Source: Oscillospiraceae bacterium
GTDB taxonomy: Bacteria > Bacillota > Clostridia > UMGS1840 > HGM11507
Reading direction: 5' to 3'
NCBI GenBank assembly: GCA_015068665.1
Contig: SVKB01000002.1
Span: forward strand, 62,001-126,000
DNA length: 64,000 bases
Of the stretch, positions 14,218 to 37,773 are shown in pieces. Every line of letters begins with the position of its first letter. Within the stretch, counting starts at the first letter, position 1. The notes under the pieces are model-generated. The model was not told the DNA's origin, ran no database searches, and worked only from the letters and a program-made list of their open reading frames with translations. The position numbers and the translations under genes are program-made.

Positions 14218-14667
14218 ATGATTCTTGACAACATTAAAAACAAAGAGCTTTACTACAAGCTTGGCGAAGGCTTTAAAATCGGTCTTGATTTTATTGACAA
14301 ATGCAGAGCTGAAGGCATTGAAGTGGGCAAATATGAATTAGACGGCAAAAACGTTTACGCAAACGTTCAGGAATATAATTCCAAGGAAGAAGCCAAATTT
14401 GAGAACCATGATAACTATATTGATATTCAGTACATATTAAAGGGTAATGAAATGATGTACTGGGAGGATCTTGCAAAATGCACCGAAATGATTCCCTACA
14501 ATCCTGAAAAAGATGTTACCTTCTATAACGACACCGATTCCGCAGTTGCATTAGAGGTTAATGAGGATGAATTCGCTGTATTCTTCCCCAACGATGTTCA
14601 TAAACCCGGCATGAAAATCAAGGAAAGCTTACCGGTTAAGAAAATACTTATAAAAATTCACATATAA
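14218..14667 (+). CDS. YhcH/YjgK/YiaL (DUF386) family protein
   Basis: The start is the ATG at 14218, about 11 nt after AAGGAG; an ATG at 14209 lies inside that site and is too close. The 149-residue product has the DUF386 beta-sandwich pattern: EYNSKEEAKFENHDNYIDIQYI, a W-containing MMYWEDL strand and AVFFPNDVHKPGM, whose His residues are the conserved metal/sugar-site candidates. Family members accompany sialic acid, glucuronate or galactoside catabolism; the reaction is not firmly established. This copy has no sugar-catabolic neighbours, sitting between argC (divergent) and a structured repeat element. Confidence 0.87.
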   Translation: MILDNIKNKELYYKLGEGFKIGLDFIDKCRAEGIEVGKYELDGKNVYANVQEYNSKEEAKFENHDNYIDIQYILKGNEMMYWEDLAKCTEMIPYNPEKDVTFYNDTDSAVALEVNEDEFAVFFPNDVHKPGMKIKESLPVKKILIKIHI

Positions 14668-14700
14668 CAAAAAGGGGACTGTAAATTTATTTACAGTCCC
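14668..14700 (-). terminator. Terminator closing repeat copy 1
   Basis: A 12-bp stem (14675-14686 with 14689-14700) is followed on the minus strand by CC and five T. The stem may also slow plus-strand transcripts leaving the YhcH-like gene. Confidence 0.8.
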
Positions 14701-14970
14701 TAAAACAATTCAGAGGGGATAGGAAAAAATCTTCAGAATGGATAAACTTAGCCAAAATCTTTGATTTTGGGTTACCCGCAGCTGTATGAGATACAGCAAG
14801 TGGCTAAGTTTATTCATAACCAAAAACTTAAATTTTAAAGATTTTTCTAAAATCTTTACCTTTTTAATGGTTAGCCGTCGGAAAGTTATCCGACGGCTAA
14901 TTTGATAAGTTTCTCTATCAAAATCGTTGATACATCTTGTTTTTGGTGGTCTGGAGTTTTTTTACATCCC
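14668..14970 (-). repeat. Structured intergenic repeat, copy 1 (putative minus-strand RNA)
   Basis: This element is also present at 36564-36877; by hand alignment 14701-14970 differs from the second copy at about 7 of 270 positions. Read on the minus strand it shows a series of stems. TTAGCCGTCGG pairs with CCGACGGCTAA (14871-14900). AAAGATTTT pairs with AAAATCTTT (about 14836-14858). A long ATAAACTTAGCCA/TGGCTAAGTTTAT stem (14741-14814) encloses GCTGTAT/ATACAGC and CAAAATC/GATTTTG hairpins. A terminator closes the unit (GGGACTGTAAAT/ATTTACAGTCCC, 14675-14700, then five T). Ends 14675-14685 and 14961-14970 form an imperfect inverted repeat. It lies between convergent genes and directly follows the 14975 stop. 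No coding frame fits. Confidence 0.85.
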
Positions 14971-14974
14971 TTTT

Positions 14975-15649
14975 TTATTTCTTTTTTACATTTTCCATAT
15001 ACAGTCTTTCAAAATCGCTCTCCTCTATCCCCTTTTCTTCAAGATAGGTACAGGTGAAAATGGGAAGATTGCTGTGAAGTGAAAGAAAGGTAGGACTCAG
15101 CATATGTCTTGAAGCTATAATTTCGGTATTGTCTATATGCTCCTCTTTAAGCTGTTCCTCCTTAAAGGGTACAAACAAAACCGGAGTTTCAAAAACCACA
15201 GGGGTAGCAGAGCCGTCGGGATAATACCATAAATAAAAACCGTCAGCCTCTGTTGCATAGGAAAGAGCCTCTTTACTGTAATGAGCTTCGGCAAATTCCT
15301 TTTCCATCTGCATAACATCGTTAGGATATATAATCACCTGGGGAATAAGAGGTATTCCCTCCCCTTCAGGCACAGGCTTTAATCTTAAAGCCTTATCCTT
15401 TATGTCAAAAAGCCATTCCTCATCTCCTAAGGTTATGGGAACAAGACGTTCCCCCTTAGTTGATGCAACTGCCTTACAGGTGGTAAGCCGTGGCTCTTCC
15501 GCGGTAACATTTACGGTTATTTCGATCCTGTCCTCATAGGTCAGAAATTCGATTGGAATATAGCCTTTTTCCTGAGTATAAATTGCCTTTACGCAAACAT
15601 CAAACATATTTTCCTTAAGTATAGGTTTTTCCTTCTTTTTAAAAAACAT
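14975..15649 (-). CDS. Hypothetical protein (224 residues)
   Basis: I do not recognise the family. The product starts MFFKKKEKP and is a soluble, acidic protein with alternating beta segments (YIPIEFLTYEDRIEITVNVTAEE, EEWLFDIKDKALRLKP) and no signal peptide or membrane segment. There is a weak GGCGG-type RBS. It lies about 5 nt upstream (in the transcription sense) of repeat copy 1, which could form its 3' UTR. The CAP-domain gene is further upstream on the same strand beyond 57 bp. Function unknown; coding potential is good because the frame is long and has an RBS. Confidence 0.6.
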   Translation of the reverse strand: MFFKKKEKPILKENMFDVCVKAIYTQEKGYIPIEFLTYEDRIEITVNVTAEEPRLTTCKAVASTKGERLVPITLGDEEWLFDIKDKALRLKPVPEGEGIPLIPQVIIYPNDVMQMEKEFAEAHYSKEALSYATEADGFYLWYYPDGSATPVVFETPVLFVPFKEEQLKEEHIDNTEIIASRHMLSPTFLSLHSNLPIFTCTYLEEKGIEESDFERLYMENVKKK

Positions 15650-19228: not shown

Positions 19229-19377
19229 TTTTGTGTCAGATAAGAGTATTTCTTTGTGGCTTTGCCACAAAATGATGTTCAGGCAAAGCCTGAAACAGTG
19301 TTGACCGCAGGCGGTCAAATGATGTTGTGCCCAAGGACACAAACACAAAAAAAGAACGCATATTGCGTTCTTTTTTT
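19229..19377. repeat. Multi-hairpin array C with outer closing stem
   Basis: Three local hairpins, each with a tiny loop: TTTGTGGC/GCCACAAA (19253-19271), TTCAGGC/GCCTGAA (19278-19294) and TTGACCG/CGGTCAA (19301-19318). They are separated by AATGATGT or ACAGTG words. A fourth local stem TTGTG.CC/GG.CACAA (19325-19342) has one mismatch. The upstream strand TTTGTGTC (19230-19237) pairs perfectly over 8 bp with GACACAAA (19336-19343) and would close the whole array. A terminator hairpin follows at 19347-19377. No gene fits. Sequence differs from arrays A and B, but the layout is the same. Confidence 0.75.
19347..19377. terminator. Bidirectional terminator of array C
   Basis: AGAACGCA, loop TAT, TGCGTTCT, flanked by six or more A on one side and T on the other, so it could act on either strand. 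Confidence 0.85.
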
Positions 19378-19383
19378 GGAAGA

Positions 19384-19625
19384 GCAGAACAATAATGATG
19401 CAGGTTAGTTTTTAATGAAATATCAACTCCGTTGATATGAAATAATCCTGACGGATTATGAAATATTTTTCTTTCAGAAAAATGTGAAATAAAATAAATC
19501 CTTTTATCACACGCCGCAGGCGTATTTCATATTGCGTAGCAATATTTCACGCCCGAAGGGTATTTCACAAATCCTGAAAGGATTTATTTCATTGAAAAAA
19601 GCACCGACAAAGTCGATGCTTTTTT
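19384..19625. repeat. Multi-hairpin array B (constant block plus variable hairpins)
   Basis: The constant block 19384-19495 matches 19635-19746 with one difference in 112 nt. It contains hairpins ATATCAAC/GTTGATAT (19420-19438), ATAATCC/GGATTAT (19442-19459) and ATTTTTC/GAAAAAT (19465-19483), each preceded by GAAAT. The variable block carries ACGCC/GGCGT (19511-19523), ATATTGC/GCAATAT (19529-19545), GCCC/GGGT (19551-19561) and AAATCC/GGATTT (19569-19585), each followed by TTTC. Strand AAATAAATCC (19492-19501) pairs over 10 bp with GGATTTATTT (19580-19589), closing the array or competing with the last hairpin. ATTTCATTG and a terminator end the unit. Confidence 0.9.
19595..19625. terminator. 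Bidirectional terminator of array B
   Basis: Six A, GCACCGAC, loop AAA, GTCGATGC (one mismatch), six T. Usable on either strand. Confidence 0.82.
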
Positions 19626-19634
19626 CATGGCAAA

Positions 19635-19867
19635 GCAGAACAATAATGATGCAGATTAGTTTTTAATGAAATATCAACTCCGTTGATATGAAATAATCCT
19701 GACGGATTATGAAATATTTTTCTTTCAGAAAAATGTGAAATAAAATTTGCCTTTTCATATGCCGTAAGGCATATTTCATACAGGTCGTGTATTTCATAGC
19801 GAAGCTATTTCACTTGCCGAAGGCAAATTTCATTGAAAAAACGACTTGCCGAAGCAAGTCGTTTTTT
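19635..19867. repeat. Multi-hairpin array A (constant block plus different variable hairpins)
   Basis: Its constant block (19635-19746) is nearly identical to that of array B, 251 bp away in direct orientation. The variable block is unrelated in sequence: ATATGCC/GGCATAT (19757-19774), ATACA/TGTAT (19778-19792), ATAGC/GCTAT (19796-19808) and TTGCC/GGCAA (19814-19826). These are again spaced by TTC words. The outer strand AAATTTGCC (19743-19751) pairs over 9 bp with GGCAAATTT (19822-19830), overlapping the 3' arm of the last hairpin, as in array B. The final terminator abuts the 3' end of tRNA-Tyr on the minus strand. Confidence 0.9.
19836..19867. terminator. Terminator of the tRNA-Thr/tRNA-Tyr transcript and array A
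   Basis: CGACTTGC, loop CGAA, GCAAGTCG (8 bp), flanked by A6 and T6. On the minus strand it begins 2 nt after the encoded CCA of tRNA-Tyr. Confidence 0.88.
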
Positions 19868-21288: not shown

Positions 21289-23499
21289 ATGTTATGTTGC
21301 AAATGTAAGAAAAATATGGCTGTGGTTTTCATAAATAAATTTGAAAACGGCAAGCAGGTTAATGAAGGCTATTGCCTTGCCTGCGCAAAGGATATGGGAA
21401 TTCAGCCTCTTGAACAAATGATGAGTCAGCTGGGAATTACCGATGAGGATTTAGACGGCTTAAATTCCGAAATGGGTGATTTTTTATCCGGCTTTGGCGG
21501 TGAAGGCTCTCTTGCCTTCCCTGACGGCCCTGCCCCGGATAACAATGCTGCCGGACAAAAAGGCTCAAAAAAGCCCGCCAACTCAAAAAGCATCCTTGAG
21601 GCATACGGAACCAATCTTACCGAAAGAGCAAAACAGGGTAAGCTTGATATAGTAGTCGGAAGAAAAAAGGAAATTGAACGCGTTCTTCATATTTTAAACA
21701 GAAAAACAAAAAACAATCCCGTTTTGTTAGGTGAACCCGGTGTCGGTAAAACGGCTGTTGCAGAGGGTGTTGCTCAAAATATTGTGAAAGGACTCGTTCC
21801 GGAAAAGCTTCTCGGCTTTGAGGTGTACCTTGTAGACTTTACCGCCCTCCTTGCAGGGACACAGTTCCGAGGTCAGTTTGAGGGCAGACTTAAAAAGCTT
21901 ATAGATGAGGTTAAAGAAAGAGGAAATATAATCCTGGTTATAGATGAGCTTCATAATATTGTTGCCGCAGGTGATGCTGACGGGGCAATGAATGCGGCAA
22001 ATATTTTAAAACCTGCGCTGGCAAAGGGAGATATCCGTGTTATCGGGGCTACTACCTTTACCGAATACAGAAAGCACATTGAAAAGGATTCGGCTTTAGA
22101 AAGGCGTTTCGCACCCGTAAATATTGATGAGCCCTCCGAGGAGGATACCTTTGAAATATTAAAGGGGCTGCGCCCCTTCTATGAGGCTTATCACAGAATA
22201 AGCTTAACCGACGAGGTACTCAAGGTGGCAATTTCCCTGTCAAAAAGATATATTCCCGAACGTTTCTTACCCGACAAGGCTATTGACTTAATTGACGAAT
22301 GCGGTTCCAAAAAGAATCTTGAAAATAAAAAGCTGGCGGAATTAAACCGTCTTAACAAGGAGCTTCTTACTGTTATAGAAAAAAGAGAGGCAGCTCAGGT
22401 GACTGAAGAAAATCAGGAGCCCGATTACGAAAAAATCTCCATCTACAAAATGGAGGAGCTTAAGCTTAATGACAAAATCCGGGAAATCGAAGCAAGCGGT
22501 GTGGATATCCCCGTTACCGTTTCAGATGTTGTTTCGGTGGTTGAAAGGCTATCGGGAATTCCGATTACCGAGCTTAAGGAAAATGATATAAAGCTTCTTA
22601 AGGGACTTAAGGAGAGAATGGAAACAAGAATTGTCGGTCAGGAGGAGGCACTTGATACGGTTTGTGCCGTTATAAGAAGAAACCGTGCAGGTCTTATAAA
22701 GAAAAAAAAGCCTTCATCCTTTATATTTGTCGGCCCAACCGGTGTGGGTAAAACCGAGCTGGTAAAAACTCTGGCAAGGGAAATTTTAGGAACGGAGGAT
22801 GCGATAATCCGCTTCGATATGTCCGAGTATATGGAAAAGCACACTGTTTCAAAGCTTATCGGCTCTCCCCCGGGATATGTGGGCTATGACGATGCGGGGC
22901 TGCTTACCGAAAAGGTAAGAAGAAATCCTTACTCGATTATTCTTCTTGATGAAATTGAAAAAGCGCACACTGATGTTTTCAATATTTTGCTTCAGGTACT
23001 TGATGACGGCAAATTAACCGACAGTCACGGAAAAACCGTTCATTTTGAAAATACAATTATAATTATGACATCAAATGCAGGCTCTGACTACCGTAACAGC
23101 AGCTACGGCTTCATTGAAAATGAAAAGGCGTCCTCAAGAGATAAGGTTTTAGGCGCACTTAAGGAAATTTTCAGACCTGAATTTTTAAACCGAATTGATG
23201 AAACAGTTGTATTCAACCATCTTTCAAAGGAAAATATAAAGGGAATAATTGACATTCTTATTTCGGACCTTCAGAAGGATCTTGACGATAAGGAAATTAT
23301 TATCACTCTTACCGATGACGCAAAGAATTATCTTGCCGAAAAGGGCTATGATAAAAAATTCGGTGCCCGTCCGTTAAAGAGACTTATTCAGAAGGAAATT
23401 GAATCGGCTCTGGCGGATATGTATATAAACGAAGAGGTAGCATACGGCGATAATATTACAATTGACTGTAAAGACAATTCATTAATATTCAATAAATAA
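21289..23499 (+). CDS. clpE: ClpE-like ATP-dependent protease ATPase subunit with N-terminal zinc finger
   Basis: A 736-residue HSP100 unfoldase. Residues 3-32 form a CxxC...CxxC zinc finger (Cys3/6 and 29/32), the hallmark of ClpE; the double Clp-N repeat of ClpC/ClpA is absent. A Gly/Asp-rich linker follows, then AAA domain 1 (Walker A GEPGVGKT 148-155, Walker B ILVIDELHN), a short coiled middle region (about 345-410), and AAA domain 2 (Walker A GPTGVGKT near 482, IILLDEIEKA). A YGF tripeptide after SNAGSDYRNSS is a candidate ClpP-docking loop. It would feed damaged proteins to ClpP. No ctsR, mcsA or mcsB is adjacent. GGAG precedes the ATG. Confidence 0.88.
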   Translation: MLCCKCKKNMAVVFINKFENGKQVNEGYCLACAKDMGIQPLEQMMSQLGITDEDLDGLNSEMGDFLSGFGGEGSLAFPDGPAPDNNAAGQKGSKKPANSKSILEAYGTNLTERAKQGKLDIVVGRKKEIERVLHILNRKTKNNPVLLGEPGVGKTAVAEGVAQNIVKGLVPEKLLGFEVYLVDFTALLAGTQFRGQFEGRLKKLIDEVKERGNIILVIDELHNIVAAGDADGAMNAANILKPALAKGDIRVIGATTFTEYRKHIEKDSALERRFAPVNIDEPSEEDTFEILKGLRPFYEAYHRISLTDEVLKVAISLSKRYIPERFLPDKAIDLIDECGSKKNLENKKLAELNRLNKELLTVIEKREAAQVTEENQEPDYEKISIYKMEELKLNDKIREIEASGVDIPVTVSDVVSVVERLSGIPITELKENDIKLLKGLKERMETRIVGQEEALDTVCAVIRRNRAGLIKKKKPSSFIFVGPTGVGKTELVKTLAREILGTEDAIIRFDMSEYMEKHTVSKLIGSPPGYVGYDDAGLLTEKVRRNPYSIILLDEIEKAHTDVFNILLQVLDDGKLTDSHGKTVHFENTIIIMTSNAGSDYRNSSYGFIENEKASSRDKVLGALKEIFRPEFLNRIDETVVFNHLSKENIKGIIDILISDLQKDLDDKEIIITLTDDAKNYLAEKGYDKKFGARPLKRLIQKEIESALADMYINEEVAYGDNITIDCKDNSLIFNK

Positions 23500-23536
23500 A
23501 AAAACTGCAAACGGAAAAACCGTTTGCAGTTTTTTT
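23498..23536. terminator. Bidirectional terminator between clpE and the convergent glycosyltransferase gene
   Basis: ACTGCAAACGG, loop AAAAA, CCGTTTGCAGT (11 bp) with A6 before and T6 after. Confidence 0.93.
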
Positions 23537-23563
23537 GGAACTTTATTTTAATATAATTGTCAT

Positions 23564-24640
23564 TTATTTATAGGTATCAAAGGTTTTTTCAAGCATGGTA
23601 TCGTAATTAAAGCGACCAAGGATTGCCTTCTTTGCATTTTCACTCATTCTTGCGTACATTTCCTTATCGGTCATAAGAGTATTGATTGCATTTGCAAAGG
23701 CTTCGGTATCGGGATACTCAACGATTATTCCACAGTCGGTTTCTTCATTTACAATATCGGAGTTACCCCCTACATTGGTTGCAACAAGAGGAAGCTTTTT
23801 GGAAAGAGCCTCAAGCATTGCAAAGGAAAGCGCTTCAAGACAGCTTGCCGAATTAACAAATAAATCAGCTCCCGAAAGGATATTTTCGGTATCCTTTCTA
23901 AACCCCAGCTGGTATACGGTATCTGAAAGCCCTTCTCTTTGTATTTTAGCGGTTATTTCATCCCACAGCTCACCGTCTCCCACAATAAGAAGCTTAAAGG
24001 GCTTATCGGCAATTTCCTTAAGTCTTTTTATTGAATCAACAAGGAAGGGCAAGCCCTTTGCAAAATGATATCTTGCCAGGGTTACTATTAAAAACTCATC
24101 CCCGATTCCCAGCTCTTCTCTTATGGTAGAGGGAGTACTCCCTTCATTAAATGTCATTGCATTGAAGATTACCTCTATCCTATCCTTTTTAACACCGTTA
24201 CCGATAAGAAGCTCCTTACCGTGATTGCATACCGAAATGATTTTATGGTTTTTCGGAGTCATAAAGGAATTGGTTATCCTCCAGATAAAATTGGTTTTTA
24301 TGGTAAGATGAGAGGTAAAAACAACCTTTACCCTTTTATAATATTTCTTTGCAAGAAGGGCGATATAGTTTTCTCTCGGATACTGTGCATGGACAACATC
24401 TATCTGATTTTTTTCAAGATATGCCGCAAGCTTTTTAGCCGCCTTCATATCGAAGGGATGCTTCATTTCAAGCTGAAGGCACGGGATACCAAGCTCCTCT
24501 AACTGAGTCAGTAAAAGCCCGGGCTCATTATATGCAAAAAAACATTCGCATTTTGTATTGTTGTAAGCCTTTACAAGATTCAGCACATATTTTTCGGTGC
24601 CTGCCTTCCCTGCGTGATTTATAAGATATAAAACCTTCAT
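23564..24640 (-). CDS. GT4-family glycosyltransferase
   Basis: A 358-residue GT-B glycosyltransferase. The N-terminal half starts MKVLYLINHAGKAGTEKYVLNLV, the usual acceptor-side glycine loop. The C-terminal half has LARYHFAKGLPFLVDSI, KLLIVGDGELW and EALSFAMLEALSKKLPLVATNVGG, the EX7E-type donor site of GT4. It would transfer a sugar from a nucleotide donor during polymer synthesis at the membrane face. It is transcribed towards clpE and divergently from the phosphodiester glycosidase gene; with the operon downstream of that gene it forms an envelope-polymer neighbourhood. Confidence 0.9.
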   Translation of the reverse strand: MKVLYLINHAGKAGTEKYVLNLVKAYNNTKCECFFAYNEPGLLLTQLEELGIPCLQLEMKHPFDMKAAKKLAAYLEKNQIDVVHAQYPRENYIALLAKKYYKRVKVVFTSHLTIKTNFIWRITNSFMTPKNHKIISVCNHGKELLIGNGVKKDRIEVIFNAMTFNEGSTPSTIREELGIGDEFLIVTLARYHFAKGLPFLVDSIKRLKEIADKPFKLLIVGDGELWDEITAKIQREGLSDTVYQLGFRKDTENILSGADLFVNSASCLEALSFAMLEALSKKLPLVATNVGGNSDIVNEETDCGIIVEYPDTEAFANAINTLMTDKEMYARMSENAKKAILGRFNYDTMLEKTFDTYK

Positions 24641-36563: not shown

Positions 36564-36566
<3 letters not shown>

Positions 36567-36603
36567 AAAAAGCTGTAAATAAATTACTAAATTTATTTAC
36601 AGC
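36564..36603 (-). terminator. Terminator closing repeat copy 2
   Basis: A 13-bp stem (36572-36584 with 36591-36603) followed on the minus strand by six or more T, overlapping the tgt stop codon region. Confidence 0.82.
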
Positions 36604-36877
36604 CCCTAAAACAACTCAAAGGGGATAGGAAAAAATCTTCAGAATGGATAAACTTAGCCAAAATCTTTGATTTTGGGTTACCCGCAGCTGTATGAGATAC
36701 AGCAAGTGGCTAAGTTTATTCATAACCAAAAACTTAAATTTTAAAGATTTTTCTAAAATCTTTACCTTTTTAATGGTTAGCCGTCGGATAGCTCTCCGAC
36801 GGCTAATTTGATAGGTTTCTCTATCATAATCGTTGATACATCTTGTTTTTGGTGGTCTGGAGTTTTTTTACATTCCC
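36564..36877 (-). repeat. Structured intergenic repeat, copy 2 (putative minus-strand RNA)
   Basis: The second copy of the 14668-14970 element. Positions 36605-36874 are nearly identical to 14701-14970; the differences cluster in the loop between the CCGACGG arms and in the GATA/TATC hairpin. The long TAAACTTAGCCA/TGGCTAAGTTTA stem (about 36647-36719) with its inner hairpins is unchanged. The closing hairpin is different in sequence from copy 1 (GCTGTAAATAAAT/ATTTATTTACAGC, 36572-36603) but again ends in T6-7 on the minus strand. Like copy 1 it lies between convergent genes (tgt and degV) and directly downstream of a minus-strand stop codon. Confidence 0.85.
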
Positions 36878-36885
36878 TTTTAATT

Positions 36886-37773
36886 TTAATCTTCTCTTTT
36901 TAAGCCCATAAAGAACAGGGCAACTGTTCCTTTACCTGTATGTGAGCCGATTACGGCACCGATATCATTTATCAGAACCTTACCCTTAAGAGCCGGGAAG
37001 GTTTCTTCAACAAGGTCTCTAACGGCATTAGCATCCTCTATACTTGCCGAGTGGCATATGTAGCAGTCACCGTCATAGGAGGTTCCGCCGTATGCACATT
37101 CCTCCATCATTTTAACGGTTTCCTTGATAACTGTTTTCTTACCTCTTATTTTCTTTCTCGGAATCAGCTTACCCTCAAAGCTTACATTCATAAGAGGACA
37201 AATTCCAAGCAAAGTTCCCAGTAAAGCGGAGGTTGCGGAAACTCTTCCGCCTCGTTTCAAATGGGTTAAATCAGAGGTAAAGAACCAATGATGAACATTT
37301 AACTTATTTTCCTCTGCCCAGGCAGCAACCTCATCAATTGACTTTCCTTCGTCTCTTAAATCAGCAAGCTGCTTTATAAACAGACCGTAGCCCGATGAGG
37401 CTGCAAGAGAGTCAATAACATAGAGCTTTCTTTCGGGATACTTTTCCTTAAGCTCATTTGCCGCTATCTGACAGGAATTAAAGGAGCCTGAAATACCTGA
37501 GGATAAGGAAACGAAAAGCACATCCTTCCCCTCTTTTAAAAAGCTTTCAAAAAACTCCATGTGCTGATCAACATTAATCTGACAGGTGGTAGGCATTCCG
37601 CCTTCAACTATTCGCTGATAGAATTTATCAAAGGGATAGCTTTCTCCGAAATTATCTTCATAGGTTACATCGTCAAGTAAAAACGTGAAATAAAGATATT
37701 CAATATTTCTCTCCACAAAAAAGCTTTTCGGCATATCCGCCGTTGTCGTAGCTGCTAATACAAAATTACTCAT
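36886..37773 (-). CDS. DegV-family fatty-acid-binding protein
   Basis: A 295-residue DegV protein, same length as typical members. The N-terminal domain has TTTADMPKSF and later VSLSSGISGSFNSCQIA, which contribute to the fatty-acid carboxylate pocket. The C-terminal domain includes WFFTSDLTHLKRGGRVS, LGTLLGICPLM and DIGAVIGSHTGKGTVALFFMG. DegV/FakB proteins hold acyl chains for phosphorylation by FakA. No fakA is adjacent, so which kinase it serves is unknown. AAGGAGG precedes the start. Its stop lies 9 nt before repeat copy 2. Confidence 0.93.
   Translation of the reverse strand: MSNFVLAATTTADMPKSFFVERNIEYLYFTFLLDDVTYEDNFGESYPFDKFYQRIVEGGMPTTCQINVDQHMEFFESFLKEGKDVLFVSLSSGISGSFNSCQIAANELKEKYPERKLYVIDSLAASSGYGLFIKQLADLRDEGKSIDEVAAWAEENKLNVHHWFFTSDLTHLKRGGRVSATSALLGTLLGICPLMNVSFEGKLIPRKKIRGKKTVIKETVKMMEECAYGGTSYDGDCYICHSASIEDANAVRDLVEETFPALKGKVLINDIGAVIGSHTGKGTVALFFMGLKRED

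Follow-up and report, generated by a model that had tools for sequence, protein, structure and literature searches.

Is a 300-nucleotide (nt), highly folded piece of non-coding DNA that occurs twice in one stretch of a bacterial genome an RNA gene, or is it an element that moves? We consider this question for 64,000 nt of the genome of an Oscillospiraceae bacterium (contig SVKB01000002.1; the whole stretch is hereafter the window), where two copies of one element lie at positions 14668–14974 and 36567–36885. A first-pass annotation had read a duplicated element of about 300 nt from the sequence, and we find that 14682–14980 and 36588–36886 indeed form a direct repeat, 299 nt ungapped and 96% identical, which is the longest repeat in the window. 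The body of the repeat at 14701–14970, first aligned to 36605–36874 with roughly 7 differences, pairs with 36607–36876, two bases further on, with 8 differences in 270 nt. The reading that we favor, at a probability of roughly 60%, is that this is a non-autonomous mobile element, the representative of a new family of structured, dispersed repeats of Clostridia that is specialized for the sites of intrinsic terminators.

Copies, fold and strand

The genome-wide BLASTN count proposed by the first-pass annotation yields 58 matching stretches, several at the ends of contigs, in the own 2.2-Mb genome, and a covariance model built from 22 cores gives 51 hits there at E 0.01, a rough measure with this model, 12 of which score above 120 bits. 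The weaker model hits represent further subfamilies with the same plan and other ends (AAAAGC/GCTTTT, AAAGAT/ATCTTT, GGAGAT/ATCTCC); divergent subfamilies also show a different upstream hairpin and tandem arrays. Such arrays, of two to three units head to tail, are seen at loci L116, L119 and L120 of genome G054 and at L258, L259, L260 and L262 of the own genome. Across the class (Clostridia), the model has hits in 56 of 391 genomes, which fall in 33 of 222 genera, no more than 9 hits being scored in any one genome; in a phylum sample of 299 genomes the own genome alone matches, with 0 of the 298 others, some being members of the class that do not carry the element. Nine named stretches belong to metagenome-assembled genomes labeled Clostridia or Oscillospiraceae, with goat, roe deer and sheep gut as the sources where a title states one. 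Three viral contigs and one bacterial record hold a copy in a phage context, where it follows immediately on the stop codon of a structural gene; by our reading of the order of the open reading frames (ORFs), not by search, this gene encodes the major capsid protein. Related phages with a protein 85% identical do not have the copy, and one L032-type query finds no DNA match in phage and plasmid collections. No autonomous, protein-coding version occurs among the loci examined, in which the distance from core to right end is short throughout. A second right-end-like motif 1.3 kb away (L092/L095/L096) was rejected as an autonomous form, as it flanks a phage structural gene and not a transposase.

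Each unit comprises a short terminator hairpin and a folded core of about 140–260 nt, in which helix P1 brings the two ends together, a long stem, P2, encloses P3 and P4, P4 lies between conserved CCCGAAG and CGAG, and P5 follows. The 13-bp stem of the first-pass annotation is present as ATAAACTTAGCC/GGCTAAGTTTAT and encloses two hairpins. The window copy is far more stable than its dinucleotide shuffles, with z-scores of −9.75 (plus strand) and −9.77 (minus strand) and 0 of 200 shuffles as stable. Covariation among the 22 cores covers 24 pairs, 12 with compensatory change. A larger alignment holds 51 complete units from many genera, obtained from 197 raw pattern hits by removal of repeats (120), selection for a CCGAAG-like motif and plausible lengths (84), clustering at 93% (55), and exclusion of L011, L020, L073 and one L143 site, in which the right end is missing or misassigned or an internal deletion is present. 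The imperfectly inverted ends pair as P1 in these units, with outer variants GGGGA/UCCCC, GGAGA/UCUCC and GGGAA/UUCCC and inner variants GUUCAGA/UCUGGAC, GUUUGGA/UCCAGAC, GUGCAGA/UCUGUGC and GCGUAGA/UCUACAC, and P5 varies as GCAAAAA/UUUUUGC, GCAUAAA/UUUAUGC, GCGUAAA/UUUACGC and ACCAAAA/UUUUGGU. The 40 pairs of the full units are 96.4% standard, and 26 of them show changes on both sides, compared with a mean of 15.6 and a maximum of 20 in 500 shuffles; double-change cells number 214, against a shuffle maximum of 80. These shuffles ignore relatedness, which is retained in a control that slides the pairing partners by 1–2 columns, and here standard pairs fall, in every helix, to 15–69% per helix from 88–98% with the true partners.

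The first-pass annotation had drawn the fold on the minus strand. We find that on the plus strand G·U outnumbers A·C among the paired positions of the 51 units by 160 to 22, counts that would be reversed if the minus strand were the selected fold, and that the plus strand is more stable as RNA in 48 of 51 units, with a mean advantage of 10 kcal/mol; we therefore take the plus strand as the selected fold. An asymmetry within P1, AGG vs TAC, is conserved. The fold could act as RNA or as single-stranded DNA, and we consider both. The element matches no Rfam family, a point raised by the first-pass annotation: no relevant family appears at the gathering threshold over the window or when copy 1 and 14 related loci are scanned permissively, and the weak permissive hits for copy 1, well below the families' own cut-offs, were judged to be chance.

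Terminator sites and hairpin exchange

The flanks of 95 copies were analyzed with mechanical ORF calls, leaving out copies with less than 400–450 nt of flank. In 76 of the 95 an ORF reads toward the right end, and the stop of 53 of these ORFs falls −3 to +16 nt from it; most copies shown have a hairpin with a T run ahead of the left end. The element is dispersed, structured and non-coding, as first described, and the terminator hairpin expected at one end marks its left end, flanked by A and T runs. At sites flanked by two genes of the same direction, it is the right end that lies toward the stop in 36 cases and the hairpin in 10 (33 and 9 with another ORF rule). Orientation set purely by replication is not supported: mean GC skew is opposite in sign (0.054 vs −0.091) where both neighbors are on the plus strand.

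Two sister species of one genus, G050 and G077, provide three loci whose filled and empty states are found by their joined flanks. In the pair L112/L146, the filled site reads CTGCATAAAAAA, unit, TTAAATATT, and the empty partner has the same flanks around TTGCCGGGAAATTTCCCGGCAA; in L114/L177, AATACAAAAA, unit, TTTTATTTTAATACTAT corresponds to an empty partner with ATGAGTTGCGCTGCAACTCAT; and L115/L212 is a similar pair around GCTTTCAGGTTTTCCTGAAAGC with flanks that are less alike. The resident hairpin is lost in all three, the incoming unit supplies GGGGCTGTAAAATAATTACAGCCCC, and none of these three clean pairs shows a target-site duplication. At L114 the lost hairpin contained the host stop codon, and the frame now stops inside the element (AAG GGG CTG TAA); the reading frame at L115 likewise ends within the element. 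As a baseline, element-free terminators in two 20-kb stretches keep their hairpin between G050 and G077 in four of four cases; the contrast of three of three exchanged with four of four kept has one chance in 35, which is suggestive and not conclusive.

The element is present in both species at L106/L053, with the hairpin retained, and at L113/L176 the hairpins differ, one species having the element and the other another insert. In a different genus, L237 (G358) is filled and L251 (G304) empty, while L252 (G287) holds a different subfamily at the same spot, which indicates that the site is preferred and not the copy. The L128 site holds the element in G290 and lacks it in G275, G219 and G362; the hairpins all differ, and the flanks are only ~70% alike. 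At L235, L236 and L237 of G358, the left end is immediately preceded by a 21–29-nt copy of the right end, which in two cases takes in local flank bases; these direct repeats are right-end copies themselves, and perhaps represent the target or the remnant of an earlier copy. The nearest copy lies within the same genome for 51 of 70 copies, exceptions often being sister-species or divergent-subfamily copies, and this closeness, together with the empty sites, shows that the element has been amplified repeatedly.

Weighing the explanations

If the element is mobile and specialized for terminators, a copy would insert between the stop codon of a gene and the T run of its terminator, where the resident hairpin would be removed and the element's own supplied, as in the cases seen; the host gene would keep a terminator in this way, and even its stop codon could come from the element. 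We infer that the plus strand moves, or is recognized, as a folded single strand, either RNA or single-stranded DNA, that it is acted on by the product of a gene located elsewhere, and that joining takes place at the A and T runs on either side of terminators. A bolder proposal, which we put forward only tentatively, is that this may be a new kind of mobile element, a portable gene ending that runs from stop codon to terminator, exchanges terminators by way of the A and T runs in these, moving as a folded single strand that a protein acting in trans recognizes, and ensures that the invaded gene retains a functional stop signal.

Several observations weigh against the reading as a terminator-specialized mobile element. 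Hairpin exchange is seen at three loci of one species pair, and in the same genus L106, L107, L110, L111 and L113 follow hairpins unrelated to the element's right end, so that either the core can move without the hairpin or the hairpin turns over later. The outermost pairs of P1 are standard in only 88% of cells and, when slid, still in 58–69%. Composite copies that carry a second repeat within P2 are themselves multi-copy, so that at least this amplification did not require an intact P2. The minus strand is usually the strand of the neighboring gene's 3′ untranslated region (3′UTR), although the plus strand folds better; of the minus-strand RNA ending in a terminator that had first been suggested, the strand of the 3′UTR and the hairpin that comes last on it hold, and the better fold does not. 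Finally, no moving enzyme was found among the two families searched, RVT_1 and Y1_Tnp, both of which are missing from many carriers. RVT_1 has 0 matches in the own genome (rated 94% complete) and is absent from 11 of 18 carriers, own included and one rated 100% complete, and present in 5 of 16 non-carriers; Y1_Tnp is found in 12 of 18 carriers, with 6 lacking it, as well as in 9 of 16 non-carriers. These genomes are incomplete assemblies in which single absences are weak, and we reject reverse transcriptase and Y1 transposase as obligatory partners; neither looks like the general motor of the element.

Much of the same evidence bears on four other explanations. A miniature inverted-repeat transposable element (MITE) of the ordinary type, with inverted ends recognized by the DDE-type transposase of an insertion sequence and an incidental inner fold, had been named as an alternative from the start. 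Its dispersed and patchy occurrence, imperfect inverted ends (GGGGATAGGAAAAAAT/ATGTAAAAAAAGTCC), A+T-richness, lack of a visible ORF and short, fairly constant span between core start and right end all fit, but the filled and empty pairs show no target-site duplication, the inner helices P2, P4 and P5, which lie outside the end sequence, covary across genera, and the P1 asymmetry is kept, which together make this explanation unlikely. We give somewhat less credence still to a process with no dedicated enzyme, in which template switching during replication or repair between terminators, at their hairpins and A/T runs, overwrites plain terminators with element-bearing ones: in its favor are the mosaic copies (L023, L024) and tandem arrays, the disappearance of the resident hairpin and joins that fall at A and T runs, but the shared runs are just ~4–6 nt and the four element-free terminators are unexchanged.

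A retroelement, whose 3′UTR transcript from stop codon to U run is copied by reverse transcriptase into cDNA that replaces another terminator, would account for unit limits that match a 3′UTR, with a stop codon on one side and the terminator T run on the other, and for own-genome copies that lack the left part (L025, L026, L029); the distribution of RVT_1 and a better fold on the strand opposite to the 3′UTR transcript render it improbable. Most improbable is a family of small RNA genes passed on vertically and homogenized by gene conversion, which suits the strong covariation and conserved core but is contradicted by empty orthologous sites, and at odds with lineage-wise bursts, occurrence in phage and a patchy distribution. 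The terminator-specialized mobile element remains our preferred reading. Mobile elements of bacteria are usually recognized by their enzymes or target duplications, and this one visibly shows neither; it has a deeply conserved fold, is carried by about one-seventh of the sampled genomes of the class, and occupies sites where harm should be small. If the exchange is true, terminators would be replaceable parts that evolve by invasion, and 3′UTRs of gut Clostridia would carry a common structured element outside Rfam. With the filled and empty pairs the mechanism can be put to a direct test, and with the family model the element can be annotated.

Parts of the window copies, nested repeats and known systems

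Copy 1 (14668–14974, plus strand) spans the entire gap between convergent ORFs, one of 152 amino acids (aa) on the plus strand with its stop at 14667 and one of 224 aa on the minus strand ending at 14975. Its bidirectional terminator hairpin, GGGACTGTAAAT..ATTTACAGTCCC (14675–14700), is preceded by an A run and followed by a short A/T-rich tail (14669–14705 in all). The core then reads, on the plus strand, the left end or 5′ strand of P1 (GGGGATAGG-AAAAAA-CTTCAGA, 14715–14737), the 5′ strand of P2 (14738–14753), the P3 hairpin (14752–14770), which varies in sequence and length between genomes, the P4 hairpin with flanking conserved unpaired bases (14779–14800), the 3′ strand of P2 (14802–14817), the 5′ strand of P5 (AACCAAAAAC, 14818–14827), its covarying 3′ strand (GTTTTTGGT, 14939–14947), and the right end or 3′ strand of P1 (TCTGGAG-TTTTTTT-ACATCCC, 14950–14971), followed by a T run. 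Copy 2 (36567–36885, plus strand) also fills the gap between convergent ORFs, of 376 aa ending at 36566, presumably a tRNA-guanine transglycosylase, and of 295 aa on the minus strand ending at 36886, which we take to be DegV-like; its terminator hairpin, GCTGTAAATAAATTAC..TTTACAGCC, lies at 36572–36604 and its structured core, from left to right end, at 36621–36877 on the plus strand.

Some copies of the element (L012, L014, L016, L013, L015) carry within them another MITE-like repeat, which measures about 290 nt and has the ends TAGCCGTCGG..GACGGCTA. An ends-only version is present in both window copies (14872–14899 and 36778–36805), TA-flanked; in copy 1 it forms the nested hairpin TAGCCGTCGG..CCGACGGCTA. 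The 11-bp stem TTAGCCGTCGG of the first-pass annotation exists as this separate hairpin (14872–14899), and because it is missing from sister copies L005–L010 and has TA on both sides like a nested insertion, we place it outside the conserved element. Copies L023 and L024 of the own genome are fused to, or adjacent to, the end of a different repeat family (GCGGTAGACCGACTTTTTC.ACAGTCTG), and in the flanks of G290 and G257 (query 1378–1540) another abundant repeat of the genus stands directly upstream of copy L130. Elsewhere in the window, two Gut-1 RNAs (RF01706) occur beside three tRNA genes at 19371–19835, adjoining a tandem repeat (19371–19495 and 19622–19746, 96% identical), and 23470–23564 is an inverted repeat whose 45-nt arms enclose a 5-nt loop.

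Group II introns start with GUGYG, from which the element's end GGGGATAGG differs. Group IIC (bacterial class C) introns insert immediately after rho-independent terminators, according to PMC8919778, and the element resembles them in lying beside intrinsic terminators, sparing genes and being structured; it differs in having no Rfam group II match, no RVT_1 in its own genome, and a resident hairpin that is lost and not kept. Clostridiales-1 RNA (RF01699), a non-coding RNA of gut Clostridiales listed in PMC2864571, had first been considered as a relative, but the element does not match it at the gathering threshold or in permissive scans. Like repetitive extragenic palindromic (REP) elements, which PMC2817692 presents with their tyrosine transposases, the element is repetitive, extragenic and palindromic, but it is far longer and multi-branched, and Y1_Tnp is absent, as noted, from a third of carriers. 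Prokaryotic MITEs (PMC10969869) are likewise non-coding, A+T-rich and highly base-paired, with imperfect inverted ends and many copies; unlike them, the element has no target-site duplication in filled and empty pairs and a covarying multi-branched fold, and no partner transposase was identified, DDE families lying outside the search.

The titles and first lines of abstracts that were searched, with supplements outside this scope, contain no description of the element, and PMC8040213 may hold it unnamed. The BOX, RUP and SPRITE repeats of Streptococcus pneumoniae are, according to PMC3049150, short dispersed intergenic repeats that fold once transcribed; BOX is modular with inverted ends that pair in the fold, and SPRITE resembles a terminator. 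The element is, like these, short, dispersed, intergenic and folded with paired ends. Compared with BOX by description, it differs in living in another host class, in spanning many genera with compensatory changes, and in replacing terminator hairpins. It is best filed as an element that works like a terminator-targeted, structured, BOX-like repeat, with a core that forms a new RNA-like family.
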